From IMG/VR virus record IMGVR_UViG_3300042894_006732, positions 1 to 23,594 of that record: 23,594 nucleotides of DNA. One strand, given 5' to 3'. Positions 3,636-18,731 of this stretch are shown piece by piece. A program made the translations under genes and the position numbers. The notes below the pieces were generated by a model. The model worked only from the letters and a program-made list of their open reading frames with translations, was not told the origin of the DNA and searched no databases. Origin of the DNA: a virus. Position 1 is the stretch's first letter; every line of letters begins with the position of its first letter.

Positions 3636-4854
3636 TCGAAGCCTCCTTCGCCGCTGCCATCGGCCGCGCCCCCGCGCGGCGCTGTTGGAAAAACTCCACC
3701 GTGCTCGCCACCGAGGCGGAGCCCGCCGCCGGCGCCGCGGGCACCACCACCGGGCGCGCTGCCTCCGCTGCGCGGGCCTGGGCCTCGCGCCATCGCTGGA
3801 CGCCGTCCGCGAGCATCCGAGCGTCCCCGGCGCGGCCCAAGAAGAACCCCACCGTGAGGGCCCCGCGGCCCTTCGGTCCCTCGCTCTTGGGCCAGAGCTT
3901 CGCCGCGCCGTCACCCGCGAGGGCGCGCCCGAAGGCCTCGAGCTCCGCCACGCCCACGAGGCCCACGTCCGCCAGGGCCGCGGCCATGGCGAGCTGGTCC
4001 CGCGAGGACGCGAACCCGGAGACGCGACCCTTCGACGCGTTGGCCAGCACCTCGAGGGCGGAGAAGGGAGGCGTCCGGGAAGCGTCCGGCGTCCGAGCGT
4101 CCGGGCGTCCGGGTGAAGCGTCCGGGACGCGTCCGGCTTCTGGCGTCCGGGCGTCCGGCTCGTCCTCGCGCGCACCTTCCTCCTCCTCCAAAACCTCCGG
4201 AATCTCCGGGAGGAGAGGGGAGTGTGAGGGGGGAGGAGGGGCGTCCGAAGAGCGTCCGGGAAGCGTCCGGGAAGCGTCCGGCTTCTGGCGTCCGAGCGTC
4301 CGGCCGGACGCTTCGAGTAGCGTCCGCCAGGGCGAACCGGACGCGGTCGCGTCGGCCCACGTCACGCCCTCGGGCACCGAGGCGAAGCGGTCGGCGCGGT
4401 GTTCGAAGCGCCAACGGAGGCGGCGGCGCTGCGCGGCGTCGAGGGCTTCAAGGCTCGTGGCCTTCGAGGAGCTGGTGGCGGGAGGAGGAGGCGCGGCGCG
4501 CGTGGGCGTGGGCTCCGCCCTGGTGGGCTCGGTGGTGCCCCTCGTGGGCCACGGCGTGGCCGTCACCTCGAACCACAGGAGGAAGAGGACGCAGCACGCC
4601 GCGTGCGCCAGGTGGTGGCGCCCGCTCTCCGCGTCGAGGCTCTCCCCGCTGTGCCACGCCACGAGGTGGCGGAGGGCCGCGTCGAAGTACCGCTCGCGCG
4701 CGCCGGGGACGCGCTGCCAGTTGTCCGGCTCGTACTTCGCCGCGCCGAACGCCAGCACGGCCATCACCTCGGTGAGCGCAGGCCACGGGAGGAGCGACGG
4801 GCGCACCTTGCCCGCGTCGTACTTCACCCCGGCGACGGAGGACGGGGCGCTCAT
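3628..4854 (-). CDS. dATP/dGTP diphosphohydrolase-like domain fused to replication-type C-terminal region
   Basis: 408 residues. Residues about 9-97 match the phage 'dATP/dGTP diphosphohydrolase N-terminal' (DUF5664, MazZ-like) type. Visible pieces are KYDAGKVRPSLLPWPALTEV, FGAAKYEPDNW, and RHLVAWHSGESLDAESGRHH followed by LAHAACCVLFLLW. A Pro/Thr linker follows, then a helical segment (about 134-180), a low-complexity stretch (about 185-262) that encodes the iteron repeats, and a C-terminal region (about 265-362) with GALTVGFFLGRAG and W-rich helices. That last region resembles the end domain of phage replisome-organiser proteins, but only loosely. It is encoded directly before DnaB and coupled by ATGA to the gene upstream. 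A possible role is origin binding or helicase loading joined to dNTP control (inference). ATG at 4854 was chosen by overlap. Confidence 0.7.
   Translation of the reverse strand: MSAPSSVAGVKYDAGKVRPSLLPWPALTEVMAVLAFGAAKYEPDNWQRVPGARERYFDAALRHLVAWHSGESLDAESGRHHLAHAACCVLFLLWFEVTATPWPTRGTTEPTRAEPTPTRAAPPPPATSSSKATSLEALDAAQRRRLRWRFEHRADRFASVPEGVTWADATASGSPWRTLLEASGRTLGRQKPDASRTLPGRSSDAPPPPSHSPLLPEIPEVLEEEEGAREDEPDARTPEAGRVPDASPGRPDARTPDASRTPPFSALEVLANASKGRVSGFASSRDQLAMAAALADVGLVGVAELEAFGRALAGDGAAKLWPKSEGPKGRGALTVGFFLGRAGDARMLADGVQRWREAQARAAEAARPVVVPAAPAAGSASVASTVEFFQQRRAGARPMAAAKEASNG
4071..4344 (+). repeat. Iteron-like GCGTCCG array; candidate phage replication origin
   Basis: GCGTCCG occurs in direct orientation at 4071, 4082, 4089, 4097, 4105, 4118, 4129, 4143 and 4151, and again at 4241, 4252, 4263, 4274, 4288, 4296 and 4320. 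Inverted copies (CGGACGC) start at 4305 and 4338. Four copies from 4241 to 4274 are exactly 11 bp apart. Other steps are 7, 8, 13 and 14 bp, so the unit falls in all three reading frames and cannot be explained as a peptide repeat. The gap 4159-4240 holds a purine/pyrimidine-skewed stretch with CCAAAACCTCCGGAATCTCC. Lambda's origin iterons lie inside gene O, just before the helicase-loading gene, and this arrangement is analogous. Confidence 0.65.
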
Positions 4855-5936
4855 GTTGCAGCCCCGGCGCGGCGCTCCGCGTGCTCCATCGTGCGCACCG
4901 AGGCGCGATGCCCGTAGCAGAGTTCGCGGAGGTCCTTCCGCTTCGTGTACGCGACTCCGACAGGGTGCGGGCACCCACGCACGGCGCACGGGTCGTTCGC
5001 GCAAATCACCCGGCGCGGCGCGATGGCCAGCACCAAGCCACCGCGCGGCACGGCGTCCGCCACGAAGCGCGGCGCAAAGAGGGCCTCGAAGGCGCCGAGA
5101 GTGAGCGGCGCGGCCTCGGGCCGGGGCGGCATCGGGCGCGCGAGCGGGCCACCGTCGCGCACCTCATCACGGCACGGAGGGCACCACGCTTGGAACGCGG
5201 GCGCCGTGTCGGGGCGCACGATGCCCACGGGGCGCTCGTGGCACCGCTCGCACGGCGTCTCCACCGTGGACGGCACCTCGGGAAGGATGCCCACGCGGCG
5301 CTTGTATTCGGCGGTACAGGCCGTCTCGCGGCACGTGGAGCACCACCCCTCACGGCCCTTGCGCGTCGAGGGCACCACACGCGCCGCGGGGCGCTCGTGG
5401 CACTTCGAGCACGTCGTGGGCTCGAGGGTGGCGCCCTTCGAGCGCGCGCGCCGCGCGTCGCGACGGCACACCGGGCACCACGCCCGCGTCTCGGGCGCGG
5501 TCGAGGCCAGCACGCGGCCCGCCGGGCGCTCGTGGCACCGATCACACGTCGCGCGTGCCTTGGGCGCGCGCACCACCGCGTTGCGCGCATCGACGCGGGC
5601 GCGCAGGCGGCACCGACCGCACCACCCGTATTGCTCGCGCGGCGTGGCGTTCGTGGAGCCGTGGAAGGGCTTCGCGGCGCGGTGCAGGTGGCACCGCTCG
5701 CACACCTTCGCGGCGGGCTTCTCCGGGGGCGGAGGAGGCGCGGGGAGCTCCACACCGGCGTGGTGAGCACCGAGGGCGCACCCGGCACACGTCACGAACT
5801 TCGCGCTGGTGTGACCCGAGCGAGCTTCGCCGCGCGCGAGGTGGCGCGCGCCGCACGCGGTTGTGGTGAGCGAGCATCGCAGCGCGACGCACCCGAAGAG
5901 GACCGGGAGGTGGACGCGGGAGGACGGGGCGCTCAC
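4851..5936 (-). CDS. Tandem zinc-ribbon repeat protein
   Basis: 361 residues of unknown function. Four repeats of the form C-x2-C-H...W-C-x2-C-R are visible: C79/C82 with C106/C109, C131/C134 with C154/C157, C176/C179 with C199/C202, and C229/C232 with C252/C255. Three of them start with the near-identical C-x2-CHERP(A/V). An N-terminal CAGC (50-53) and a distinct C-terminal cluster (C312, C317, C322, C340) add more probable zinc sites. The repeats sit 45-53 residues apart and must have arisen by duplication. GTG at 5936 is chosen because it overlaps the previous stop (GTGA). Zinc ribbons in array often bind nucleic acid or protein partners, but no enzyme domain is seen. Confidence 0.7.
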   Translation of the reverse strand: MSAPSSRVHLPVLFGCVALRCSLTTTACGARHLARGEARSGHTSAKFVTCAGCALGAHHAGVELPAPPPPPEKPAAKVCERCHLHRAAKPFHGSTNATPREQYGWCGRCRLRARVDARNAVVRAPKARATCDRCHERPAGRVLASTAPETRAWCPVCRRDARRARSKGATLEPTTCSKCHERPAARVVPSTRKGREGWCSTCRETACTAEYKRRVGILPEVPSTVETPCERCHERPVGIVRPDTAPAFQAWCPPCRDEVRDGGPLARPMPPRPEAAPLTLGAFEALFAPRFVADAVPRGGLVLAIAPRRVICANDPCAVRGCPHPVGVAYTKRKDLRELCYGHRASVRTMEHAERRAGAAT

Positions 5937-6151: not shown

Positions 6152-6390
6152 GCGGGCACCGTGGCGGTGTTGGGGGCCTCGGGGAGCACGGAGTCCCCCC
6201 AGATCGTCTCCACCGTGGTGTTGAGGAGCCGCGCCATCACCACGGCGCGCGTGGCGTTGGGGAGGGCGCCCTCCTCCGCCGTCTGCCACGAGCTGGCGGG
6301 AATGCCCGCGCGCGCCGCGGCTTCGCGGAGCGACAGGCCGTAGGCGATTCGCAAGGCTTTCAGGCGCGCGGACGGTCCGGTAACTTCCAT
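6148..6390 (-). CDS. Small XRE-family HTH regulator (Cro-like position)
   Basis: 80 residues with one helix-turn-helix domain filling about residues 9-65 (RLKALRIAYGLSLREAAARA, then GIPASSWQTAEEG, then LLNTTVETIWG). This is the classical XRE/Cro-CI fold. No peptidase or multimerisation domain is present. It is the first gene of the leftward replication/terminase operon and is coupled to it by GTGA, so it should be made during lytic growth. That favours a Cro-like role over a lysogenic repressor. Its ATG at 6390 has no good ribosome-binding site but lies 8 nt after a TACGTT -10 element, suggesting a leaderless mRNA. An operator (6403-6416) overlaps that promoter, so autoregulation is likely. 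Confidence 0.8.
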   Translation of the reverse strand: MEVTGPSARLKALRIAYGLSLREAAARAGIPASSWQTAEEGALPNATRAVVMARLLNTTVETIWGDSVLPEAPNTATVPA

Positions 6391-6474: not shown

Positions 6475-6960
6475 ATGGCAGATCGAGGAGGAGGACGGCC
6501 CACCGTGGGAGCCGCGCGGAGTGAATCTCTGCGGGCTTTGGTGCGGGCCATCACCGCGACGGATCACGCCGGCGTCCAGCGCCGCACCGCGGAGGCCCTC
6601 GGGGTCGCGCCGGGCTCCCTCAACGATTTTGCGAACGGGCGTTCGGGCGCGGGCGCGGGGATCATTGACGGGCTTGTGGCCTATCTCCGCCGCCCGGTGG
6701 AGGAGCTCGTGGCCGCCAACGGAGACCTGGCGGAGCTCCGTCGCCCGCGCACCGAGGCCGGGAGCGTGGAGGTGGTGTTCGGCGCCCTCCCTCTCTGGCC
6801 CCAGCTCCTCGAGGGCGCGCGGGCCCTGGACCCCTCGGTGCCCGAGTGGTGCTGGCGCGACGTGGCGGAGGCGCGCGTGTGGGTGCGCCACCCGGTCACC
6901 TCCAGCATGATCGCGGATATGGCGCGTTTCGTCCTCCGCCACACGCCCCCGCACGCCTGA
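6475..6960 (+). CDS. HTH regulator, CI-like position (161 aa)
   Basis: Divergent from the small XRE gene across two operators. Residues about 20-72 form a probable helix-turn-helix region (LRALVRAITATDHAGVQRRT, then AEALGVAPGSLNDFANGRSG). This is followed by a helix with YLRRPVEELVAANGDLAELR. The C-terminal half (about 98-155) carries WPQLLEGARALDP and EWCWRDVAEARVWV and may be for oligomerisation; it has no LexA-type peptidase motifs that I can see. ATG at 6475 has no Shine-Dalgarno. GTG at 6505 is a real alternative because GGAGGAGGA lies about 9 nt before it, and it would remove only ten Gly/Arg-rich residues. Position and size suggest it is the lysogeny-side regulator, but this is inference. 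Confidence 0.72.
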   Translation: MADRGGGRPTVGAARSESLRALVRAITATDHAGVQRRTAEALGVAPGSLNDFANGRSGAGAGIIDGLVAYLRRPVEELVAANGDLAELRRPRTEAGSVEVVFGALPLWPQLLEGARALDPSVPEWCWRDVAEARVWVRHPVTSSMIADMARFVLRHTPPHA

Positions 6961-8467: not shown

Positions 8468-8671
8468 ATGAGCTCGAAGCGCGCGCGGGTGTTCCCTCGT
8501 GGTGTGGGCAAGGGGTGGAAGCGTGGGCGGAGGCGCGTCAACGGTGAATGGATCATCGTCGCAACCGACAAGTGCCACGGGTGCCGTGAGGAGTTCGCCG
8601 CGTGCGTGTGTGGCGAGCGTGTCCCCGCGCCGTGGGCCAACACCTACGTGATGGACCGGGAGGCCGCGTGA
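8468..8671 (+). CDS. Small basic CxxC protein before the methyltransferase
   Basis: 67 residues. A strongly basic N-terminus (SSKRARVFPRGVGKGWKRGR) is followed by CHGC (about 36-39) and CVCGERVP (about 46-53), a probable single zinc knuckle. GGAG is placed about 8 nt before the ATG, and the stop shares one base with the methyltransferase ATG (TGATG), so the two are translationally coupled. The basic zinc-knuckle form suggests nucleic-acid binding, possibly as an accessory of the modification genes (inference). Confidence 0.65.
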   Translation: MSSKRARVFPRGVGKGWKRGRRRVNGEWIIVATDKCHGCREEFAACVCGERVPAPWANTYVMDREAA

Positions 8672-10128
8672 TGGAAGGCCTCATCGTAGACAACTTCGCC
8701 GGGGGCGGCGGCGCGAGCTCGGGTCTGGAGGACGCCCTCGGGCGCCCCGCCAACATCGCGGTGAACCACTCCCCCGCGGCCATCGCCATGCACAAGGCGA
8801 ATCACCCGCACACGCGGCACTATCAGGAGGACGTGTGGGCGGTGGACCCTCGCGAGGCGTGCGGCTCCCAGAAGGTGGCCGTGGCGTGGTTCTCCCCCGA
8901 CTGCACCCACTTCTCCAAGGCGAAGGGCGGGCAACCGCGCTCGAAGGAGGTGCGCTGTCTGGCGGACGTGGTGATCCGTTGGGCCCGCGAGGTTCGTCCG
9001 CGCATCGTGTTCCTTGAGAACGTAGAGGAGTTCCTCACCTGGGGGCCGTTGTCCGATGAGGGCCACCCGATCAAAGGGCGGGAGGGGGAGGACTTCCGAG
9101 CGTGGCGCGCGAAGCTCGTGGAGCTCGGGTATCGCGTGGAACACCGCACCATCGTGGCGGCGGACCACGGCACGCCCACGACGCGAAAGCGCCTGTTTCT
9201 CGTGGCCCGCTGCGATGGGCTCCCGATCGTGTGGCCCGACGCGACGCACGGGCCGGGGCGCGGGAGGCCCTATCGCACGGCGGCGGAGATCATCGATTGG
9301 AGCCTCCCGTGTCCGAGCATCTTCGACCGTAAGCGCCCGCTGGCGGAGGCCACGCTCCGACGCATCGCGGCCGGTGTGCGGCGCTACGTCATCGATGCCG
9401 CGCGCCCGTTCATCGTGCCGTTGACCCACCAGGGCAACACGGAGCGGGTGTACTCCATCGACGCGCCGCTCCGAACCATCACCGCGGCCAACCGCGGTGA
9501 GCTCGCGCTCATCTCCCCCACGCTGGTGACCACGGGTTACGGGGAGCGCGAGGGCCAGGCGCCGCGCGTGCCCGGTCTGGGCAAGCCCCTCGGAACCGTG
9601 GTGGCCGGCGGTCAGAAACACGCCCTCGTGGCCACCTTCTTGGCAAAGCATTACGGGGGTGTCGTCGGCCACGGCCTCGAGCGGCCGGTGGGCGCTGTCA
9701 CCTCGAAGGACCACCACTCCCTCGTGGCCGCACAACTCGAGCTCCCGAGCGTGGGCACCGTGGGTGCGATGGGCCACGCCGCGGAGGTGCGCGCCTTCCT
9801 GGTCAAATACTACGGGGCGGACGGAGCGCCTACGTCCCAACAGAGCCTCTTCGATCCGCTCCACACCGTCACCACCAAGGCGCGATTCGGCCTGGTGACC
9901 ATCCGAGGGGTGGCCTACAGAGTCACGGACATTGGGATGAGGATGCTTGCGCCCCGCGAGCTCTTCAACGCACAGGGGTTCCGGCCGGACTACATCATCG
10001 ACCCCGAGCTTGGAGGGCGGAGGCTCACCAAGACGGAGCAAATCGAGTGCGCGGGCAACAGCGTGTGCCCGAAGGTCGCGCGCGCCATCGTCCACGCCAA
10101 CGTCTACCAGCGCGCGGTGGCCGCTTGA
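8671..10128 (+). CDS. DNA (cytosine-5) methyltransferase, phage orphan type
   Basis: 485 residues. It transfers a methyl group from SAM to C5 of cytosine in a short target. Motif I is DNFAGGGGASSGLE (7-20). Motif IV is WFSPDCTHFSKAKGG (73-87) with catalytic C78 in a PDC rather than the usual PPC. Motif VI is FLENVEEF (114-121), and motif VIII TTRKRLFLVAR (170-180). Motifs IX/X are RMLAPRELFNAQGF and IECAGNSVCPKVARAIV. Between VIII and IX lies an enlarged target-recognition region with four related units: PLRTITAAN (266), PLGTVVAGGQKHALV (306), PVGAVTSKDHHSLV (339) and PLHTVTTKARFGLV (396). No restriction enzyme gene is adjacent, so protection of phage DNA from host restriction is the likely job. 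Confidence 0.93.
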   Translation: MEGLIVDNFAGGGGASSGLEDALGRPANIAVNHSPAAIAMHKANHPHTRHYQEDVWAVDPREACGSQKVAVAWFSPDCTHFSKAKGGQPRSKEVRCLADVVIRWAREVRPRIVFLENVEEFLTWGPLSDEGHPIKGREGEDFRAWRAKLVELGYRVEHRTIVAADHGTPTTRKRLFLVARCDGLPIVWPDATHGPGRGRPYRTAAEIIDWSLPCPSIFDRKRPLAEATLRRIAAGVRRYVIDAARPFIVPLTHQGNTERVYSIDAPLRTITAANRGELALISPTLVTTGYGEREGQAPRVPGLGKPLGTVVAGGQKHALVATFLAKHYGGVVGHGLERPVGAVTSKDHHSLVAAQLELPSVGTVGAMGHAAEVRAFLVKYYGADGAPTSQQSLFDPLHTVTTKARFGLVTIRGVAYRVTDIGMRMLAPRELFNAQGFRPDYIIDPELGGRRLTKTEQIECAGNSVCPKVARAIVHANVYQRAVAA

Positions 10129-10916
10129 ACACCGAGCTGGTCCAGCGATGGAGCGAGCGCCGGGGCATCTACCGCCCCGCCGGGGAGACCTTCGAGCCGC
10201 GCGGCCACGAGGTGGCACCCATCACGGACGACCGCACCGCGCGCGCCTTCGTGGTTCGGCACCACTACTCCGCGAGCTACCCCGCGGCGCGCCGTCGCTT
10301 CGGTCTCTACGGCCACGGGGAGCTCCCCGGGGAGCTCCTCGGGGTCGCGGTGTTCTCCGTCCCGATGCACCCGGCGGTGTTGCGCCCCTTCGCGCCGGAC
10401 ACCTCGGTGGAGCTTGGGCGCTTCGTCCTCCTCGATTCGGTGCGCGGCAACGGGGAGAGTTGGTTCCTTGCGCGCTGCCTCCACCTCCTCCGCCACGAGG
10501 GGTTCGCGGGGGTGGTGTCTCACTCCGACCCGATGCGCCGCCGCGACGCCTCGGGGGCGGCGGTCTTCGGGGGCCACGTGGGCACCATCTACCAGGCCAC
10601 CAACGCGACCTATGACGGCACCACGGCGCGGGCGACGGTGAGGCTCCTCCCCGATGGGCGGGTGTTCTCCGCGCGGGCCATCTCGAAGATTCGCGCGGGC
10701 GAGAAGGGCCGGGAGTACGCCACCGAGGAACTCCTCCGCGCGGGCGCGCGAGCCCCGAGGGCGGGGGAGGAGGCGCGCGCGTGGCTCTCCGAGGTGCTCC
10801 CGCTGGTGACCCGCACGGCGCGCCACCCCGGCCAACACCGATACCTCTTCGCGCTGGACCGCGCCGCGCGTCGGTTGCTCCCCGCCTCGAAGCCTTACCC
10901 GAAGGTGATTCCGTGA
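10125..10916 (+). CDS. Mom-family adenine modification protein (GNAT fold)
   Basis: 263 residues. It resembles the phage Mom type, which in Mu converts adenine to a bulky N6 (methyl)carbamoyl derivative and blocks many restriction enzymes. Visible family-like blocks are FVVRHHYSASYPAARRRFGL (42-61), LLGVAVFSVP (71-80), ELGRFVLLD (96-104), NGESWFLARCLHLL (109-122), GVVSHSDP (129-136) and GHVGTIYQATNA (150-161). The C-terminal SARAISKIRAGEKGREYA and a further helical region follow. The start is TTG at 10125, overlapping the methyltransferase stop as TTGA. I recognise the family from memory of these blocks rather than a search; the GNAT superfamily is safer than the exact chemistry. Confidence 0.7.
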   Translation: MNTELVQRWSERRGIYRPAGETFEPRGHEVAPITDDRTARAFVVRHHYSASYPAARRRFGLYGHGELPGELLGVAVFSVPMHPAVLRPFAPDTSVELGRFVLLDSVRGNGESWFLARCLHLLRHEGFAGVVSHSDPMRRRDASGAAVFGGHVGTIYQATNATYDGTTARATVRLLPDGRVFSARAISKIRAGEKGREYATEELLRAGARAPRAGEEARAWLSEVLPLVTRTARHPGQHRYLFALDRAARRLLPASKPYPKVIP

Positions 10917-11188
10917 TGCGCCCCACGACGCCCGCCAACGACAACGCGCCCGCGCGCCCTCGGTGGGTGAGGCTCCCCGAGGAGGCCCGCCTCCGCGGGT
11001 TCTCCACCGAGGGCCTCCGCCGGTGGTGCGTGGCGCGCGGGGTGCCCATCCGCCAGAGCTCGCACCGCGACGCGTGGGTTTCGCCCGAGGCCATCGACGC
11101 CGCGGTTGAAGGGCTCCCCGTCGCGGGCACCGCCGCCCCCGACGAAATCGACGCAGAACTGAACGCCCTCCCAGGTCGCACGCGATAG
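10916..11188 (+). CDS. Excisionase-like winged-helix protein
   Basis: 90 residues. The core RWVRLPEEARLRGFSTEGLR followed by RWCVARGVPIRQ and DAWVSPEAIDAAVEGLP is the small MerR-type winged helix found in phage excisionases. It has a first helix, a 'W...RGVP' recognition region, and a Trp/aromatic strand leading to the last helix. It lies 10 nt before integrase, the standard place for xis. ATG at 10916 shares a base with the previous stop (TGATG); GTG at 10913 is in frame and would overlap as GTGA. Xis proteins bend attachment-site DNA to direct excision. Confidence 0.65.
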   Translation: MRPTTPANDNAPARPRWVRLPEEARLRGFSTEGLRRWCVARGVPIRQSSHRDAWVSPEAIDAAVEGLPVAGTAAPDEIDAELNALPGRTR

Positions 11189-11198: not shown

Positions 11199-12560
11199 AT
11201 GGCCCGCCCACGCACCGGACAGGCCACCTACCGCCGGGGGCGATGGGTGGCGCGAATCCTCCTCCACCGCGAGCCCCGCACAGAGTCCGGGGAGTACCGC
11301 ACCGCGCAAGTCGAAGTGACGCGCGAGGGCGCGCCCGTCACCTCGAAGGAGCCCGGCGCGAAGTCTCACGCGCACCGCTACGCCCAACGCCTCCAGGGCC
11401 TCTACGATGACGGCCGGTGGGAGCCCGTGCGCGCCGCGAACTCTCCGGGGAAACCGGATGGTTCGGACGGCTCGAACTCTTCGACGCCTTCGAAGAGTTC
11501 CCCCGAGGCCACGACGGTGGGCGTGTGGGTGGTGCAGTGGCTCGCAACGCAGAGCTACTCCGAGGCGAAGCGCGACGCCGCGCGCGTGGCCGTGTACCTC
11601 CCGCCCACCGAGCTGGCGCGCGTGGCGCTCGGGGAGGTGCGCCCGCCCCACGTCGCGCGCTTCGTGGCGGAGCTCCGGGCCAGCACCTCCCCGAAGACCG
11701 CGAAGGCCCCCGCGCCTCGCACCGTGCGCAACGTGTACGACGTGGTGCGGCGCGCGCTCAAAGCCGCGGTCTTCGAGGGGCTCCTCCTCGCAGACCCCAC
11801 CACGAGCCTCCCGAAGACGGCGCGCCCGCACGCGGAGGACGCCCACCCCGAGGCCCGCGCGGGTTATCGCCTCGGGCGGGAGGAGGTGGAGTCGCTCGTG
11901 GCCGCGAGCGCCGGCCGCTGGCGTGTGCTGTGGGTGCTCCTCGCGCTCACGGGCGCGCGCCTCGGGGAGGCCCTCGCGCTCCGCTGGCGGGACCTGCTGG
12001 AGGACACGCCGCTCCGCCGGGTTGTGATCGCGCGCCAGGTGCACCACCGGACGCGGGCCATCACCGCCACGAAGACCCGCGAGGCCCGCACGGTCCCCCT
12101 CCACCCCGAGCTCCGCCGCGTGCTCGAGGTGTGGCGCTCGGTGGGGTGGCGCGAGGAGTACGGGCGCGAGCCGCTCCCCGAGGACCTTCTCCTCCCGGCG
12201 CGGAGTGAGCCAGGGCGCCCGTGGGGACAGGCGAGCGACGCGGGCGGGCCCCTGTGGGCACAGGATGCGTACCGCGCCCTCGGGCGCTCCCTCGAGGCCG
12301 CGGGCATCCGCGCGCACCGCGTCCACGACTTGCGCCACACCTTCGCCTCCCTCTGCGCGGACGCGGGCATGAGGGAGAACGTGGCCGCGAGGTGGACGCA
12401 CGCCCCGAGCGGAGGCTCCGCCCGCCACCTCTACGCCCTCCCCTCGTGGGCGGCGCAATGCGCGGAGATGGTCCTCCTCCGGGTGTCCTTCCCCGAGGCG
12501 GAGGGGGTGGAGGAGGAGGCCCTCGAAGGGGTTTCCGTACCGGGTTCCCGTACCGGGTGA
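11199..12560 (+). CDS. int: Tyrosine-family site-specific integrase
   Basis: 453 residues. It catalyses recombination between attP and the bacterial attachment site through a 3'-phosphotyrosine. The N-terminal part (about 1-75) is the arm-binding type. A Ser/Gly/Pro linker (82-107) leads to the core-binding domain (about 108-210). The catalytic domain has TGARLGE with R254, the beta-hairpin Lys in TKTREARTVPLHP (K292), HDLRHTF with H376 and R379, H401 in RWTHA, and nucleophile Y412 in RHLYALP. The ATG at 11199 follows a TAGCCT element by 7 nt. The last codons overlap the arm-type repeats of attP. The gene is convergent with the tRNA fragment, as usual for tRNA-integrating phages. Confidence 0.95.
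   Translation: MARPRTGQATYRRGRWVARILLHREPRTESGEYRTAQVEVTREGAPVTSKEPGAKSHAHRYAQRLQGLYDDGRWEPVRAANSPGKPDGSDGSNSSTPSKSSPEATTVGVWVVQWLATQSYSEAKRDAARVAVYLPPTELARVALGEVRPPHVARFVAELRASTSPKTAKAPAPRTVRNVYDVVRRALKAAVFEGLLLADPTTSLPKTARPHAEDAHPEARAGYRLGREEVESLVAASAGRWRVLWVLLALTGARLGEALALRWRDLLEDTPLRRVVIARQVHHRTRAITATKTREARTVPLHPELRRVLEVWRSVGWREEYGREPLPEDLLLPARSEPGRPWGQASDAGGPLWAQDAYRALGRSLEAAGIRAHRVHDLRHTFASLCADAGMRENVAARWTHAPSGGSARHLYALPSWAAQCAEMVLLRVSFPEAEGVEEEALEGVSVPGSRTG
11474..11500. repeat. Perfect 10-bp inverted repeat inside the integrase linker
   Basis: GAACTCTTCG (11474-11483) and CGAAGAGTTC (11491-11500) can pair with a 7-nt loop. The region encodes the low-complexity linker of integrase and is less GC-rich than its surroundings. 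Confidence 0.6.
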
Positions 12561-12571
12561 CGTTCGAAAGA

Positions 12572-12599
12572 GAAAAGGCCCCGTTTCCAGGGCCTTTTC
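12572..12599. terminator. Bidirectional rho-independent terminator in attP core
   Basis: GAAAAGGCCC (12572-12581) pairs with GGGCCTTTTC (12590-12599) over an 8-nt loop. It ends in a T-run on either strand, so it can stop int transcripts from the left and tRNA or lysis transcripts from the right. It lies 12 nt past the integrase stop and directly follows the tRNA fragment on the minus strand, so it may be the host tRNA terminator carried in the identity segment. Confidence 0.85.
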
Positions 12600-12600
12600 A

Positions 12601-12623
12601 GAGTGCGAGGAGGGGGACTTGAA
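12601..12623 (-). tRNA. 3' end of a tRNA gene (probably tRNA-Leu), att core; not a complete tRNA
   Basis: The minus strand reads TTCAAGTCCCCC then TCCTCGCA. This is a T-loop, the 3' strand of a GC-rich T-stem, seven acceptor-stem bases (TCCTCGC) and discriminator A, followed by CTC instead of an encoded CCA. TTCAAGT with a run of C and discriminator A is typical of bacterial tRNA-Leu. No 5' half, anticodon or D-arm lies upstream (checked to about 12720 on the minus strand), so it is only the identity segment used for integration. Confidence 0.65.
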
Positions 12624-12649
12624 GCCGCTCGGTGTGGGCGGAAGGCCGG

Positions 12650-12688
12650 GGTTGTTGGCGGTTCGGGGTCCGTGGACCGCCAACAACC
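12650..12688. repeat. 13-bp perfect inverted repeat beside attP core
   Basis: GGTTGTTGGCGGT (12650-12662) is the exact reverse complement of ACCGCCAACAACC (12676-12688), with a 13-nt loop. A second palindrome, GGTCC-gt-GGACC (12667-12678), competes with it. No T-run follows on either strand, so a simple terminator is unlikely. A protein-binding or recombination role within attP is possible. Confidence 0.65.
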
Positions 12689-12732
12689 GCCCCCTTCGCC
12701 GGGGCGTTCCCGTACCGGGTACGGGTTGCGGT

Positions 12733-12921
12733 TCAGTACATCAGCACGCGCGCCGCACGGGGCGAAACCACCGTGGCGGACATCACGCACGCGACGCAGA
12801 ACCCGAGGGCCGCGACGCCCACCACGCTCGCGGCGCCCACCATGGCGAAGCCCGCGGCGTAGCGCGCCGAGTCGATGACGCGGGCACAGCGCCCCGAGGG
12901 GCGTTTGTAGGGGTCGTCCAT
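12733..12921 (-). CDS. Small membrane protein (62 aa), last gene of lysis-type cassette
   Basis: MDDPYKRPSGRCARVIDSAR is followed by a long hydrophobic stretch (about residues 21-52: YAAGFAMVGAASVVGVAALG, then FCVACVMSATVV) and a short basic tail. One long or two short membrane segments fit a small holin, but there is no homology I can name. The ATG lies 4 nt after the preceding stop, with GAGGATGATGAG as ribosome-binding region. It is the last leftward gene before attP. Confidence 0.6.
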   Translation of the reverse strand: MDDPYKRPSGRCARVIDSARYAAGFAMVGAASVVGVAALGFCVACVMSATVVSPRAARVLMY

Positions 12922-12925
12922 CTCA

Positions 12926-13729
12926 TCATCCTCCGTAGGCGGCGCGCGCGAGGCGGTCGTCCAGCGCGCCCTCTGGCGCGAGGAACCACGCGGTTTCCTG
13001 TCCGAGCTTCCACGCCGCGAGTCGCCCGCTGTCGTGTTTCTGGCGCGTGCGAATGATCCCGTACGCGGGGCCCTCGCGCCCCGTCGCGGCGCGCGCATCG
13101 TCGGCCACGAGGAGCTCCCAGGCGCGCCACCGTTCGTGCTCGGGGACTGCCGCGAGCTGGTCCGCGTAAGGCGCCATGCGCGACCACAGGCCACCGGCCC
13201 CGCGCGAGAACGCGGTGAAGGCGAGGAGCACCGCCCACGTGCTCGATTCGTCGATGGGGTCGAGGCTCGTGGGGAGCTTGCGGCGCGCGTTCTCGAGGTG
13301 ACGGCGGAGGTTCGCGAGGCCCACGGCCACCTGGTCCGGCACGCCGCGCTCCCCGCGCCACCCCTCGGGGTCGAGTGTGGCCGGGCGCCCGAGGAGCTTC
13401 ACCACGAGCTCCGACGGCGCGAGCTTCACCCACGCGTTGTAGTCCGCCTCGGGGTCGAGGCTGAACGGCCGGCGGCGCTCCGTTTGGAAGTACCCCACCT
13501 CATCGAAGGGCGCGCGGCGCTTCGGGTCGGTGGCCTCGCCCGTGTTCTCGTCGCGCGAGGCGAACGCGGTGAACCCGAGGAACACCATCGCAGGCACGCC
13601 CGGCCACGCGATCGGCACCTGACGCCGCAGCTCGGCGCCGAGGGTGCGGTTCCATCGCTCCAAGAGGCGCGGGAGCTTCTCGCGCGCGTAGGCGCGCGGG
13701 TGCCCCGTGCGCGCAGACCGCGAGCTCAC
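12926..13729 (-). CDS. Putative divergent endolysin/lysozyme-like protein
   Basis: 267 residues with no signal peptide or membrane segment. An N-terminal region contains IAWPGVPAMVFLGFTAFASR, then DENTG (candidate catalytic Glu at about 61) and DEVGYFQTE (about 76-84). The last resembles the G-x-FQ motif that follows the catalytic Glu in lytic transglycosylase/lysozyme folds. A later STWAVLLAFTAFSRGAGGLW and a Trp/Tyr-rich C-terminus complete it. This motif reading is weak. Position among small membrane proteins next to the tail genes is the stronger reason to suspect a cell-wall hydrolase. The start could be GTG 13735, 13732 or 13729; I prefer 13729 because it overlaps the preceding stop as GTGA. 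Confidence 0.5.
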   Translation of the reverse strand: MSSRSARTGHPRAYAREKLPRLLERWNRTLGAELRRQVPIAWPGVPAMVFLGFTAFASRDENTGEATDPKRRAPFDEVGYFQTERRRPFSLDPEADYNAWVKLAPSELVVKLLGRPATLDPEGWRGERGVPDQVAVGLANLRRHLENARRKLPTSLDPIDESSTWAVLLAFTAFSRGAGGLWSRMAPYADQLAAVPEHERWRAWELLVADDARAATGREGPAYGIIRTRQKHDSGRLAAWKLGQETAWFLAPEGALDDRLARAAYGG

Positions 13730-13806
13730 CACCACCCCGCAGCGAACGCCTGCGCGATGCGCCAGAGCTCAGTGCCCCAGCCCACGAACGCCGTCACGTC
13801 GATCAT
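13726..13806 (-). CDS. Tiny hydrophobic peptide (26 aa)
   Basis: MIDVTAFVGWGTELWRIAQA followed by FAAGWW, a Trp-rich amphipathic or membrane-associated peptide. The ATG at 13806 overlaps the previous stop (ATGA), and its TGA overlaps the next GTG. Coupling at both ends and the absence of any gap suggest it is translated. A role as an accessory of the lysis cassette is only a guess. Confidence 0.45.
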   Translation of the reverse strand: MIDVTAFVGWGTELWRIAQAFAAGWW

Positions 13807-14171
13807 CGGTCGTCTCTTTCTGCGGCGCCTGCCGCTCCGTCGTTGTCGGCCGACGTCGACGCGTCGACCGGGCCCGCGTCGGCGAGCTGGGCGCGCGCCA
13901 CCGAGGCCGCGGCCACGATCACCTCGCGCCCCGCGGGGCAGATCACGTCCCAGGTCGCGAGGATCTTCGCGATCCCACCCGCCGCACCGACGGCGCCGCC
14001 CACGCACCCCGTGGCGAGCAGCACCGCGAGGCACACCAGCCACACGCCGCGCGCACGCGGTCGCCACGGCCCGGGCCGGTGCGACGGTCGCAGCGCCCAC
14101 GCGACGACGCACGCGGCGGGGTAGAGCAGCGCGCACAGGCACCACGCGAGCCACCAGCCAGCGCGCCTCAC
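13803..14171 (-). CDS. Small two-segment membrane protein with internal lipobox-like motif
   Basis: 122 residues from GTG at 14171 (GTGA overlap). The first membrane segment is about 6-27 (GWWLAWCLCALLYPAACVVA). The second is about 43-60 (VWLVCLAVLLATGCVGG), preceded by basic RPRARG and ending in a lipobox-like LLATGC. The acidic, Ala-rich C-terminal half follows. A translation start at the internal GTG (V43) would give a short lipoprotein, reminiscent of nested Rz/Rz1 spanins. This is speculative, and the family is unrecognised. Confidence 0.5.
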   Translation of the reverse strand: MRRAGWWLAWCLCALLYPAACVVAWALRPSHRPGPWRPRARGVWLVCLAVLLATGCVGGAVGAAGGIAKILATWDVICPAGREVIVAAASVARAQLADAGPVDASTSADNDGAAGAAERDDR

Positions 14172-14290
14172 GCCGCCCTCACGATCTCGACGGGTGCGCC
14201 GCCGTCGCAGCCCTCGCCCGTCGCGGCGATCACGGCCACCGCGAGCAGCCCCACGTAGACGCGCCAGAGCGTGCGCATCGCGCGCCTCAC
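14168..14290 (-). CDS. Small membrane or lipoprotein-like peptide (40 aa)
   Basis: GTG at 14290 overlaps the stop of the receiver protein (GTGA) and gives VRRAMRTLWRVYVGLLAVAV, then IAATGEGCDGGAPVEIVRAA. An in-frame ATG at 14278 would give 36 residues. It has a basic start, one hydrophobic segment and a Cys (EGC) close behind, which resembles a lipoprotein signal, though the lipobox is imperfect. It could be an Rz1-like outer-membrane spanin partner given its neighbours, but it is too short and degenerate to be sure. Confidence 0.45.
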   Translation of the reverse strand: MRRAMRTLWRVYVGLLAVAVIAATGEGCDGGAPVEIVRAA

Positions 14291-14961
14291 GCCGCACCGC
14301 CCAGGCGCGCCGCGAGGGCGCCACCGACGGCCAGCACGAGGGCGCCGGGCCCGCCGCGCACCGGGAGGCCACGGGCGGCGGCGACGATGTCCGCGACCCT
14401 GACTCCCGCGAGGAGGAGGATGCCTGCGATGCACCCGCCCTGGATCCACTCCGAGGCGGGGCGCACGAACAGCAGCACGCCGCCGAGGATCGCGAGCGCC
14501 AGGCCGTCGATGATCGTCGCGAGGGCGCGGGCCCCGAGCGACTCAGGCGCGGGCGACGTGCTCGGCGCCGGCGGCGGGAGTAGCGCGGCGACGCCTGCGA
14601 GCAGCGCCTCGTGGGCGACGGGCTTCGCCAGATACGCCCACCCGCGCGGGTCTGCCACGGCCGGGAGCGACTCGGGCGCGCGCCCGCTCACGAGCAGCGT
14701 GGGCACGCTCCGCGACGTGAGCGCGGCGTGCAGCGGCGCTGCGTCGCTGTCGAGCGAGAGGTCGAGCACGCACGCCGTGGGCGTCGAGCCCGCGAGCGCC
14801 GCGAGAGCTCCCGCGACGGTGTCGGCCTCGGTGACGTCGTGGCCGCTCTCGCGCAGAGGCGAGACGAGTGAGAGGCGGGCGGCTGCGTCGTCGTCGACGA
14901 CGAGGACGCGGGGGCGGGGTGTGGGGCTCAATCGAGGTCTCCGGGTGCTGGGTAGGCTCAC
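14287..14961 (-). CDS. Response-regulator receiver domain fused to membrane segments
   Basis: 224 residues. The N-terminal domain (about 18-128) is a complete two-component receiver. The acidic pocket is in VLVVDDDAAARL (D23-D25), the phospho-acceptor D67 in ACVLDLSLDSD, the switch S92 in LLVSGRA, and K113-P114 in YLAKPVAHEALL. A Pro/Ser linker (129-142) leads to hydrophobic segments at about 145-166, 174-196 and 205-218, with no DNA-binding output domain. It sits in the membrane-protein cluster between tail fibre and putative lysin, overlapping the next gene by GTGA. GTG at 14961 is chosen because AAGGA lies about 9 nt upstream; later TTG codons are possible. Control of a membrane function, perhaps lysis timing, by host phosphorelay is an attractive inference but unproven. 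Confidence 0.75.
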   Translation of the reverse strand: MSLPSTRRPRLSPTPRPRVLVVDDDAAARLSLVSPLRESGHDVTEADTVAGALAALAGSTPTACVLDLSLDSDAAPLHAALTSRSVPTLLVSGRAPESLPAVADPRGWAYLAKPVAHEALLAGVAALLPPPAPSTSPAPESLGARALATIIDGLALAILGGVLLFVRPASEWIQGGCIAGILLLAGVRVADIVAAARGLPVRGGPGALVLAVGGALAARLGGAA

Positions 14962-15023
14962 GGGCGCGTTCCTTCGAGGGAAGACGGCCCAGCGCCACGC
15001 GACGCCGGGCTCGTCGGGGTGGA

Positions 15024-16238
15024 TCAGATGGTCGAGATGAGGAGGCCGTAGTCCGTCGAGAGGTTGGTGGCGGCGATGCCGGTGAAGGTGAGCGAGTCGC
15101 TGCCGCCGCTGCCGACGGTGTAGGCGAGCGAGATGGCGCCCATGCCGCTCGGGTCGGCGCTGCCGTTGTTGTCGGCGAGCTCGCCGCTCACGACGCTTCC
15201 GACCAGCACGCTGTTGCCCGACGAGCCGCGGCGCGCGATGAAGGTGATCTCGCGGTAGAGGCTCTTCGCGAGGTCGCTCGTGTTCTTCACCGCGACCCAC
15301 ACCGCCACGCGGCGCAGGCTCGAGGTCGAGAGAGCCGGAAGCGAGATCGTCTCCGGCGTGGCGTCCGTCGTGGTGAGGGTGGCGCGCGAGCCCATCGCAC
15401 CGAGCGAGCTGGTGAGGCCGAACTGCGTCGCGTTCTGGTAGCCGTTCTGACTCGCGCTCGCGGCCTGAACGTTGAGGCCACCGGCGGCGCGGGTGATGAC
15501 GCCCGACGAGTCCACCTTCGCGCGGAGCTTGCCGCCGCTGATCTCGAGCCCGGGATCGGTGGCGAGATCGACGGCGATGGAGCCGCCCGAAATGGCGATG
15601 CCGTCACCCGCCGTGTAGCTCGCGCCACCCGAAAACTGCGTCCACACGAGGGCGTCGGTGCCCACGACGGCGCCCGACGAGACGACATAGCCGCGGCCCG
15701 CGGCGACGGTGCCAGCTTCGACGAACGTGAAGCCCCCCGCCGCGTTCGAGGCCGCGGCCATGTCGGCGGCGCGCGCCCACGAGCCCGCCGCGGCGACGTA
15801 GATGCCGTTCTGCGACGCGGTGCTCTGGTCCTTGACCAGCACGCGGTTGCCCGCGACGACGGACACGCCGTCGATGGTCTGCTCACCGCTCAGGGTGAGG
15901 TTCGCCGTCGAAGCGGCGGCGACGGAGGGCTTCACGTCGAGGCCCGCGGCGACGCTGTCCACGTACGCCTTCGTTGCCGCGTCGGTGGCGTCGCTGGGCG
16001 TGAGGAGGTTGGTGATCTTCTGGCTGTTGACCGAGAGGGAGCCCGTGAGCCCGCCCGACGCCGTGCGGAGGTTGCTCTCCGACTGCGCGCCCGTGGTCAC
16101 GTCGCTCGTGGTGGCGAGGTTGGTGCCGCTCTTCTGGAGGGTGCCCGTGAAGTTGAAGGCCGCGGTGAGGTCGATCTGTGACGAGTCGGCCTTGCCGGTC
16201 GACTGCGGAACGAGAAGGCTCTTGAGATCTTGCGACAT
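15024..16238 (-). CDS. Phage tail fibre protein
   Basis: 404 residues, rich in Ser, Thr, Ala and Gly with no Cys. Typical tail-fibre segments are present: SQKITNLLTPSDATDAATKA (then YVDSV) near 72-97, and LTLSGEQTIDGVSVVAGNRV followed by LVKDQSTASQNGIYV near 114-148. These occur in many phage distal fibres and form trimeric beta structures. The C-terminal part (about 270-404) is probably the receptor-binding or trimerising end. The ATG at 16238 has GGAG about 10 nt upstream and follows an intergenic hairpin (16254-16276), so expression may be set apart from the upstream adhesin. It is the last structural gene before the lysis-type cassette. Confidence 0.85.
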   Translation of the reverse strand: MSQDLKSLLVPQSTGKADSSQIDLTAAFNFTGTLQKSGTNLATTSDVTTGAQSESNLRTASGGLTGSLSVNSQKITNLLTPSDATDAATKAYVDSVAAGLDVKPSVAAASTANLTLSGEQTIDGVSVVAGNRVLVKDQSTASQNGIYVAAAGSWARAADMAAASNAAGGFTFVEAGTVAAGRGYVVSSGAVVGTDALVWTQFSGGASYTAGDGIAISGGSIAVDLATDPGLEISGGKLRAKVDSSGVITRAAGGLNVQAASASQNGYQNATQFGLTSSLGAMGSRATLTTTDATPETISLPALSTSSLRRVAVWVAVKNTSDLAKSLYREITFIARRGSSGNSVLVGSVVSGELADNNGSADPSGMGAISLAYTVGSGGSDSLTFTGIAATNLSTDYGLLISTI

Positions 16239-16253
16239 TCGATGTGCTCCGTG

Positions 16254-16276
16254 AAAAGCGCCGCCCTATGCGGCGC
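16254..16276 (-). terminator. Intergenic hairpin with T-run (attenuator-like)
   Basis: On the minus strand GCGCCGC (16276-16270) pairs with GCGGCGC (16264-16258) over a 5-nt loop and is followed by TTTT (16257-16254). It lies in the 56-nt gap between the LamG-like adhesin and the tail fibre. It is one of the few non-overlapping junctions, and could reduce read-through into the fibre and lysis genes. Confidence 0.6.
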
Positions 16277-16294
16277 GTGGGTGACAGTGAATGG

Positions 16295-17110
16295 CTACGG
16301 CGCGGCGCCGATGGCCTTGCGGTAGCGCGTGGCCCACGTGGTCTGTGACCACACCGAGGTCTCGACGCCTGCGCGCAGAATCGAGCCGTCGAGGCCGTTC
16401 CCGCCGCCGTTCGCTCCGAGGCGCCACGAGCCCGCCGCGCCCCAGGTGAGCGGCGTGTCCACGCTCTTCGAGGCGACTTGCCGCCCGTCGACCCACACGC
16501 GAAGGGTGCTCCCGTCGTAGGTCGCGCCGACGAGGTGCAGCCGGTTGATCTCGACCTCGTTCGCACCCGAAGAGACGGTGTCGTAGGTCGGTGTGCTGCC
16601 GAAGGGCGCGAAGGCCCGCACGACGCCGTTGGGGAGGATGTCCACGAAGGCGCCAAAAGGCGCGCTCCACGACGCGCCGTAGTCTCGCGCGATGACGCAC
16701 CCGGCGGAGCCGGGCATCGTGCGGAGCACCACGAGCGCCCACAGGGTGACGGCCGTCGTGGTGCCCGTGCTCGGGTACACGCCCGCGCCGCCGTTCACCT
16801 CGCTTGTCGAGGCGCCCGTGCATCGGAGCGCCGTGCCCGCGAGCGGAGAGAGCGCCTCGGTGTATCCGATCTGCGCGGCGCCCGCGTCGGCGAGCGAGCA
16901 CGACACAGAGCCCGTCGAGGCGAGCGGCGAGGCGCCCTCGGAGCACTCCCACAGGAGCGCGCTCGAACCCGCGGGGCGACGCAGCGCGAGGAGGCGGTCC
17001 AGCACGGTCGATGACGGGAGGGCCTCCGGGGCGCCGTCTGCGTCGAGGCCGAGCATCGTCGAGGGCGTGGCGTCCGCGGGGATCAGCACCGCTTCGAGGT
17101 TGCGTGCCAT
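16295..17110 (-). CDS. Tail-associated adhesin with concanavalin A/LamG-like domain
   Basis: 271 residues. The N-terminal 55 (MARNLEAVLIPADATPSTML, then GLDADGAPEALPSSTVLDRL) look like a fibre-attachment segment. From about 100 a LamG/ConA-type jelly roll is suggested by TAVTLWALVVLRTMPGSAGC, a buried-strand pattern, then RLHLVGATYDGSTLRVWVDG, RQVASKSV and WRLGANGGGNGLDGSILRAG. The 'Y-DG-x-LR-x-WVDG' strand pair is characteristic of this fold. Such domains bind surface glycans, so this probably helps host recognition. ATG at 17110 comes one base after the stop of the propeller fibre. Receptor specificity cannot be read from sequence. Confidence 0.75.
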   Translation of the reverse strand: MARNLEAVLIPADATPSTMLGLDADGAPEALPSSTVLDRLLALRRPAGSSALLWECSEGASPLASTGSVSCSLADAGAAQIGYTEALSPLAGTALRCTGASTSEVNGGAGVYPSTGTTTAVTLWALVVLRTMPGSAGCVIARDYGASWSAPFGAFVDILPNGVVRAFAPFGSTPTYDTVSSGANEVEINRLHLVGATYDGSTLRVWVDGRQVASKSVDTPLTWGAAGSWRLGANGGGNGLDGSILRAGVETSVWSQTTWATRYRKAIGAAP

Positions 17111-17111
17111 C

Positions 17112-18731
17112 TCAGACCTCCACCGCGAGCAGTTCGCCCGTGACCGCGACCGAGAAGAGCACCTTCACCTGCCCTGTCGCGCTGTTGACGGTGCACGTCG
17201 GTGAGAGCGTGCCGCCTTCGGTGCGCACTGCGTCGATGGCGTAGACGCCGCTCCCGCTGTCGTAGACCTGTGCCTCAATGGTGCCGTGCCACCGTCCCGC
17301 GCCGCTCGCTTGGAGCGCGCGCCCGCTAAGGCGCACGTAGGCCGGGAAGCTCCCGGGCGTGAGGGTGACCAGCGTCTGCGCGGTGAAGGTGAGCGTCGTA
17401 CCGCCCCCGCCTCCGCTCGCAGCCGGCGCCCATGTGGTGCCGTTCCACGTGAGTGCGTCGCCCACGCTCGGTGCGGCGCTGGACACCTCGCGCCCGCGCA
17501 GGTAGCCCGCGTCGGCGAGGTACGCGGGGAGTGAGCCCGCCACATACGGCCCTGGCGCGGGGTCCGCGGCGCGCCCGCACGCGAGGGCGAAGCCGTTCCC
17601 GAGCGCGAGCCACCGCCCGCCCTCGAAGACCAGCGCGAAGAGGTCGGAGGAGGAGGACGGGACCGCGGGCGTTCGAAGCCCCAACCACGACACGAGGTCT
17701 GTGGAGGTCCAGAGCCACGGCGCGGCGCTCGAGGTGGCCACCCACGCGCCGTCCTGATACCGGAGCTCGGTGAGGTACGTGGGGAGGAGGTCCCCGGCGG
17801 GAGTCTCCGCGGTCCACGTGGTCCCGCTGTTGAGCGAGCGGTAGAGGTTCTGCGAGGTGCTCCCACCGAGGCGGTACGCCACCACCTCCCCGTCCTCACC
17901 CGCCGCGAGGCGCCACGAGGCGGAGATTCCGAGGGTGGACTTGTATGCGAACGCGGCCCCGTCGCTGGAGCTGTAGACCTGTCCGCTTTGGGTGATGAAC
18001 ACCCACCGCTCCCCGTCGAAGACCACGTCGCGCCCGTCGGCGCTGCGCGCGGTGCCCGAGACGGAGTAGGCGGACCAGTTTTGCCCGCTGTCGTCCGAGT
18101 AGAAGCCCTCGGACGCGGTGAGGAGGAAGGTCCTCCCGCCGTGCGACGCGAGGGCCTTGGGCTCGCTCGGTGAGCTCGGGAAGCTGGCGCCCGACCACGA
18201 GCCCGACCCGGACCCGATCGCGCCCACGCCCGAGCCATCGTCCACCACGGTGGTGTGGAGCTCGTACCCGCCGGACGTGGTGCCCGCGAGCATCCATCGC
18301 ACGCCGTCCGTGTGGAGCGCGAAGGGCGCGGCCATCCCCGAGGGGACGTTGGTGCGGCGCGTCCACGTCTCGCCCGTCTGCGACACGCGGAGCGAGGTGG
18401 TGGGGCCCGTCTCCTCCCCCACCACCGCGAAGCGATAGCAGGCGTCGGTCCCGTCCGAGGTGGCGGTGTCTACGTCGAAGGCAAGGCGCGTGGGCGCGTT
18501 GAAGGTGGCGGGAGAGGTGGCCCACGCGGAGCGCGTCCATGCTCCGAGGTTCGGCCCGCGCAGGAACTCCACCCACTGGCCCGCGAGGCCCACCAGGAAG
18601 TTGAAGTAGGGCGCGGGGGGCAATTGCCCCGGCGCGAAGCCTGCCGCCGAGAGCCCCGACGGGGGCTCCACCATGTCACCCGAGGCGGCGGCGGTAGCCC
18701 ACGAGAGGGGGCGTGAAGGACGTTGGGCCAT
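17112..18731 (-). CDS. Tail fibre with BNR/Asp-box beta-propeller
   Basis: 539 residues. The N-terminus (about 22-58: PPSGLSAAGFAPGQLPPAPY, then FNFLVGLAGQWVEFL) is a typical baseplate-attachment segment of phage fibres. The middle carries repeated Asp boxes of sialidase-type propellers: SQTGETW (117-123), SDDSGQNW (212-219), SSDGAAF (255-261), SLNSGTTW (299-306) and TSTDLVSW (342-349). Each is followed by a hydrophobic strand such as DGVRWMLAG or DGERWVFI. A Gly-rich hinge (near 443-447) precedes a C-terminal beta domain. Asp-box propellers are found in glycan-active or glycan-binding proteins; no enzymatic residues can be assigned. ATG overlaps the previous TAA (TAATG). Confidence 0.82.
   Translation of the reverse strand: MAQRPSRPLSWATAAASGDMVEPPSGLSAAGFAPGQLPPAPYFNFLVGLAGQWVEFLRGPNLGAWTRSAWATSPATFNAPTRLAFDVDTATSDGTDACYRFAVVGEETGPTTSLRVSQTGETWTRRTNVPSGMAAPFALHTDGVRWMLAGTTSGGYELHTTVVDDGSGVGAIGSGSGSWSGASFPSSPSEPKALASHGGRTFLLTASEGFYSDDSGQNWSAYSVSGTARSADGRDVVFDGERWVFITQSGQVYSSSDGAAFAYKSTLGISASWRLAAGEDGEVVAYRLGGSTSQNLYRSLNSGTTWTAETPAGDLLPTYLTELRYQDGAWVATSSAAPWLWTSTDLVSWLGLRTPAVPSSSSDLFALVFEGGRWLALGNGFALACGRAADPAPGPYVAGSLPAYLADAGYLRGREVSSAAPSVGDALTWNGTTWAPAASGGGGGTTLTFTAQTLVTLTPGSFPAYVRLSGRALQASGAGRWHGTIEAQVYDSGSGVYAIDAVRTEGGTLSPTCTVNSATGQVKVLFSVAVTGELLAVEV

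Follow-up and report, generated by a model that had tools for sequence, protein, structure and literature searches.

The interval at positions 12535–12725 of the window (the whole stretch of DNA analysed, which is an entire IMG/VR record, 23,594 bases long and of linear class) is very probably the complete phage attachment site (attP) of a temperate, contractile-tailed phage with a Myxococcota-type host, and the sequenced molecules were very probably free phage DNA. A sequence-only reading had proposed an intact attP in unintegrated form, and this proposal is supported by a second record that reads through the site and a third that joins both ends of the map. From sequence alone, neither the site nor its unintegrated state could be established more firmly. 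The site and the genes beside it comprise the following elements.

10913–11188, plus strand: 91-aa open reading frame directly upstream of int (coding score).
11199–12560, plus strand: tyrosine integrase gene int, 453 aa, alternative start 11247 (PF00589, 8.8e-15; PHROG integrase, 2.6e-36).
12535–12545, plus strand: arm-type repeat 1, CCGTACCGGGT, left arm (motif search).
12544–12558, plus strand: arm-type repeat 2, GTTCCCGTACCGGGT, left arm, extending into the int stop codon (motif search).
12572–12599, no strand assigned: two-way intrinsic-terminator-like hairpin, AAAAGGCCC...GGGCCTTTT (folding, −17.5 kcal/mol, z −3.4).
12603–12623, minus strand: tRNA-Leu 3′ end from T54, comprising the T-loop and the 3′ strands of T-stem and acceptor, and forming the identity segment of attP (exact host matches, hybrid tRNAs).
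12617–12623, minus strand: putative 7-bp overlap, T-loop TTCAAGT, the likeliest strand-exchange site (from the start of identity at T54).
12641–12697, no strand assigned: strong hairpin between core and right arm, with a perfect core stem of 13 bp (folding; the 108-nt stretch around it has z −3.9).
12706–12725, plus strand: right arm, third direct copy, GTTCCCGTACCGGGT at 12706–12720, within a palindrome (motif search).
12733–12921, minus strand: last gene of the late (tail) operon, convergent with int, with attP between both (coding score; sibling homology ends at 12733).

Arm-type repeats, as would be expected of a tRNA-targeting attP, are present on either side of the putative core. A sequence search bore out the exact 15-mer reported at 12544–12558 and 12706–12720, and located it at no other site in the window. 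These two copies flank the tRNA end as had been described, but a tandem third arm copy was overlooked, which starts at 12535 and lies 13 bp ahead of the motif at 12548. When the whole window was searched, CCGTACC was found in direct orientation at 12535, 12548 and 12710 and as inverted GGTACGG once, at 12718; all four copies fall inside one 200-bp stretch. The third direct copy forms one half of the palindrome CCCGTACC-G-GGTACGGG at 12709–12725. Resampling the window 200 times under a first-order Markov model gave a chance expectation of 0.095 exact 15-mer pairs within 200 bp. Nevertheless, the 15-mer pair alone is moderate evidence only, because the window holds several further close 15-mer pairs inside low-complexity coding repeats (4071–4290, 5228–5524 and others). 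The confinement of CCGTACC to 200 bp is stronger evidence than the pair.

Read on the minus strand from 12623 to 12603, the core is TTCAAGTCCCCCTCCTCGCAC, the final 21 nt of a tRNA-Leu, and ARAGORN detects no complete tRNA in the window. Thus, the tRNA T-loop and acceptor 3′ segment and the terminator that had been recognized between the repeats are indeed there, although the identity segment first proposed (12572–12623) was too long: exact identity spans the 21 nt of 12603–12623, extending to as many as 25 nt in some hosts, and the terminator is similar only. Specifically, the base preceding T54 is C in the phage and G in the hosts, and therefore identity starts in the T-loop, as it also does in displaced copies at five other loci (L021, L025, L045, L054 and L062).

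When used as an exact pattern, this 21-nt end matched 82 stretches in the genome collection, roughly 58 of which are titled Myxococcota or 'Deltaproteobacteria' (our own count by record title), and ARAGORN called a tRNA-Leu, mostly GAG, at most of the matching stretches scanned. Over tRNA end and terminator combined, likeness to some host sites is 82–92%. The terminator hairpin resembles that behind host tRNA-Leu genes without being identical to it, and no genome in the collection carries the exact joined pattern of tRNA end and terminator because the terminator is phage-specific. Joining the 5′ parts of host tRNA-Leu genes from six metagenome-assembled genomes (MAGs) to the phage segment produced an intact tRNA-Leu in six of six cases by ARAGORN, and the opposite junction of the same hybrids produced no tRNA. 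This restoration of the gene in silico by a segment identical to the host tRNA 3′ end is the behaviour that would be expected of attP and attB. The earlier reading had called for a host search and regarded the lack of any host tRNA matching the core as evidence against itself; the search instead returned matching tRNA-Leu genes in many Myxococcota genomes. The hairpin at 12572–12599 would end both int on the plus strand and the restored tRNA-Leu on the minus strand, and that at 12641–12697 is a possible late-operon terminator or recombination-protein site.

An intact tyrosine recombinase gene adjoins the site. Direct reading of the int translation reveals the catalytic R, K, HxxR and Y, and the last int codons and the stop are formed by the left arm repeats. 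Its best known phage relative is the Int of Mx8 (31% identical over 72%), and int as a single query retrieved only one further viral contig. The 91-aa open reading frame is a candidate excisionase by position only, with no match in family searches and no similarity to Mx8 Uoi. Directly upstream of int, at 8602–10916, a C5-cytosine methylase gene is followed by a Mom-like DNA modification gene.

On either side, attP is bordered by phage genes. To the left lie int, the two modification genes and genes for an HTH repressor, a dATP/dGTP hydrolase, a DnaB-type helicase and MazG; a search for a PurZ-type gene was negative, and therefore MazG and the hydrolase are not part of a recognizable Z-genome set. 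To the right, a tail operon on the minus strand, which includes baseplate J, hub and plug genes, runs to the window end. A response-regulator receiver domain protein is also encoded within this operon (14287–14931, minus strand). The placement of int on one side and of lysis and tail genes on the other therefore stands for int and the tail genes, but none of the proteins searched against Pfam, PHROGs and NCBIfam was recognized as a lysis protein. Chromosomal genes in place of tail genes, which would have spoken for a prophage, were not encountered: the tail genes extend to the window end and on into the second record, G001 (IMGVR_UViG_3300042560_002589; 13.8 kb), which starts inside int, reads through attP, continues 2.6 kb beyond the window and is 100% identical to it over 11,202 bp.

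Sibling contigs place terminase and portal genes to the left of the window (L160) and head-tail genes to its right. A further contig, L164 (3300042894_006265), overlaps the left end of the window by 80 bp (97.5%) and the right extension by 2,664 bp (100%), and thus joins both ends into a circle of about 38,053 bp without host DNA (our own arithmetic); this circle is pieced together from contigs that stem from several samples and strains. The left join is backed by the siblings L160 and L166 over kilobases. On the suggested check for circularity, the window record itself is classed linear and the composite map closes. Phage DNA is unbroken across the site; the ends of a prophage would lie at attP, which is internal here, and so the sequenced molecule was very probably not integrated at this site. 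Two records with phage genes across the site, together with a map that can be closed with no host DNA in it, are most readily understood as free phage DNA.

On this reading, the N-terminal domain of Int would bind the arms and its catalytic domain the core, with strand exchange probably occurring in the T-loop segment TTCAAGT with a host tRNA-Leu gene, most likely GAG. After integration, the 5′ part of the host tRNA would be kept, and the phage would supply the 3′ end and a replacement terminator. The int gene would then point at the restored tRNA, and the old tRNA 3′ end would be left at the far prophage end. The sequenced free DNA may have been circular, concatemeric or packaged. Several observations count against this explanation: the circle is composite and the window record itself linear, the genome of the actual host was not found, an integrated relative (G087, below) has an inverted and imperfect far arm, and 8 of 14 integrase relatives lack the tandem pair.

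The main rival left, to which we assign a small probability, is a contig that spans the junction of two tandem prophages in a double lysogen formed by homologous recombination, which would also carry a complete attP. From lambda genetics, a POP′-type junction is expected between tandem prophages, and the contig of MAG OFTM64, where a single intact tRNA-Leu is accompanied by three displaced 3′ ends, demonstrates that tandem arrays at this tRNA-Leu exist. However, this scenario needs a rarer state, two records read through attP, and the viral collection yielded no host-junction contig for this phage.

Comparison with sibling phages bears on a second rival. Window positions 12733–16292 and 17018–17216 were compared with L177 (G195), L180 (G194) and L159 (G189). 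The cassette from the tail fibre to the last late gene is 97–98.5% identical to G195 and G194, phages whose baseplate, portal and terminase genes are only about 65–70% alike to those of the window phage. Judged by these identities, the pattern is one of recent cassette exchange. Sibling homology ends exactly at the stop codon at 12733; this break was considered as an att junction and rejected because 110 bp separate it from the core and further phage genes follow beyond it. In place of a tyrosine int and attP, the siblings carry a large serine integrase (Resolvase, Recombinase and Zn-ribbon domains) adjoining the terminase, at L177:18507–20129 in G195 and also in G194.

Since siblings with the shared tail end carry a serine integrase, the integration module is exchangeable, and the tRNA piece could thus be a relic in a phage that integrates elsewhere or never. 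We consider this marginally less probable even than the double lysogen, as int is intact and abuts the site, the repeats, the terminator and the exact 21-nt identity are all retained, and the closest integrase relative found sits at the same tRNA-Leu. Finally, despite the other 15-mer repeats in the window, coincidental or low-complexity matching, as might arise in a G+C-rich genome, is a negligible explanation, given the restriction of CCGTACC to one short stretch, the exact 21-nt match to tRNA-Leu accompanied by a correctly spaced terminator and int oriented as expected, and the contradiction already supplied by the host tRNA-Leu matches and hybrid tRNAs. Free phage DNA with a complete attP remains the preferred reading.

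Relatives of the integrase also bear on the layout of the site. The closest found among 183 genomes of the order (51%; G002/L040) has the same orientation as int in the window and adjoins an intact tRNA-Leu(GAG) that shares the 21-nt end; others adjoin tRNA-Gln, Asp, Ser, SeC, Ala and Val. A tandem pair, defined as an 11-nt repeat with at most one mismatch and a period of 10–14 within 150 nt of a tRNA 3′ end, occurs in 6 of 14 integrase relatives, a count that excludes both the window and Mx8, versus 25 of 1,143 control stretches (2.2%). The binomial p of about 3e-7 is a guide only, because the relatives have common ancestors and the window and Mx8 had already been seen when the test was designed. 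The signal is clear when repeats are anchored at the tRNA 3′ end and weak when anchored at the int stop, because the Int of many relatives reads into the tRNA. A tblastx comparison of the window with the relatives was uninformative at this G+C content. In G087, 41.0 kb lie between a restored tRNA-Asp and the displaced fragment of that tRNA, with tandem repeats adjoining the former and diverged inverted copies about 125 bp inside the other end. This is the split into attL and attR that had been predicted for a prophage.

At the loci L094, L095, L109, L110, L117, L118, L121 and L128, many integrase relatives read across the restored tRNA as Mx8 does, and others stop short. An Mx8-type C-terminal switch may come and go in the group. 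Stacked elements at one tRNA-Leu(GAG), with one to three displaced 21-nt 3′ ends at kilobase distances, are also seen in uncultured deltaproteobacterial/Myxococcaceae MAGs (L086, L030 and L062 on contig JAJCZM010000049.1; L047 and L021 on SCUS01000092.1). Separately, a 529-kb viral contig (L008; IMGVR_UViG_3300035182_002586) encodes a complete tRNA-Leu(TAG) of its own, which ends in the same 21 nt, and has a tmRNA gene.

The tandem pairs suggest a recurring att layout in this integrase group. There is perhaps an even chance that the Myxococcota Int relatives share a portable att module, swapped whole against a serine-integrase system between phages with a common tail cassette. With equal reserve, we propose that the module consists of the tRNA 3′ end, a replacement terminator and two arm sites of about 11 nt, whose sequence diverges between integrases. 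It is just as plausible, and no more so, that these sites lie about one helical turn apart (period 11–13), 20–50 nt downstream of the tRNA. If true, the att module would be recognizable from sequence alone, and the arm specificity of each Int predictable.

Myxococcota have few genetic tools, among which the Mx8 attP is widely used. With the window, uncultured Myxococcota relatives gain a well-defined pair of attP and int, whose predicted target is tRNA-Leu(GAG), and the metagenomic contigs analysed here are marked as free phage and not as prophage. The example is an ordinary one, although cleanly dissected, and is built on the plan of Mx8 (AF396866). In Mx8, int reads into attP, tandem arms GTGACAGCGG lie at 6370 and 6381 with a third direct copy at 6582, and a terminator hairpin and a tRNA 3′ end on the opposite strand lie between the tandem and third repeats. 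In the window attP, the tandem arm pair is likewise followed by the terminator, then the tRNA 3′ end and then the third arm. The repeat sequence and the tRNA differ, the latter being tRNA-Asp in Mx8.

A further difference concerns int itself. The Mx8 int frame runs through attP, such that integration alters the Int C-terminus (PMC6070905; PMC4383910). In contrast, the window int stops within the left arm at 12560, about 43 bp short of the tRNA piece that starts at 12603, and therefore a strict Mx8 switch cannot operate. Judged by this arrangement, the window module is Mx8-like but falls outside the strict Mx8 type.

The element in MAG RH-26jul17-416 (CANJUR010000038.1; L040, G002:C38) is similar in its integrase (47–51% identical), whose gene points with its 3′ end towards an intact tRNA-Leu(GAG) that shares the 21-nt end. 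However, about 0.7 kb separate that int from the tRNA, a tandem repeat was not found there, and its contig is without the structural genes of the window. In attP sites of the lambda/L5 type, arm-type repeats flank the core over about 190 bp in all, as in the window. Likewise, Islander-type tDNA-targeting islands of the T-loop/J subsite have an attP that carries a 3′ tDNA fragment from the T-loop and restores the gene (PMC4383910). The window differs in that its attP is seen in free form, before or after integration.
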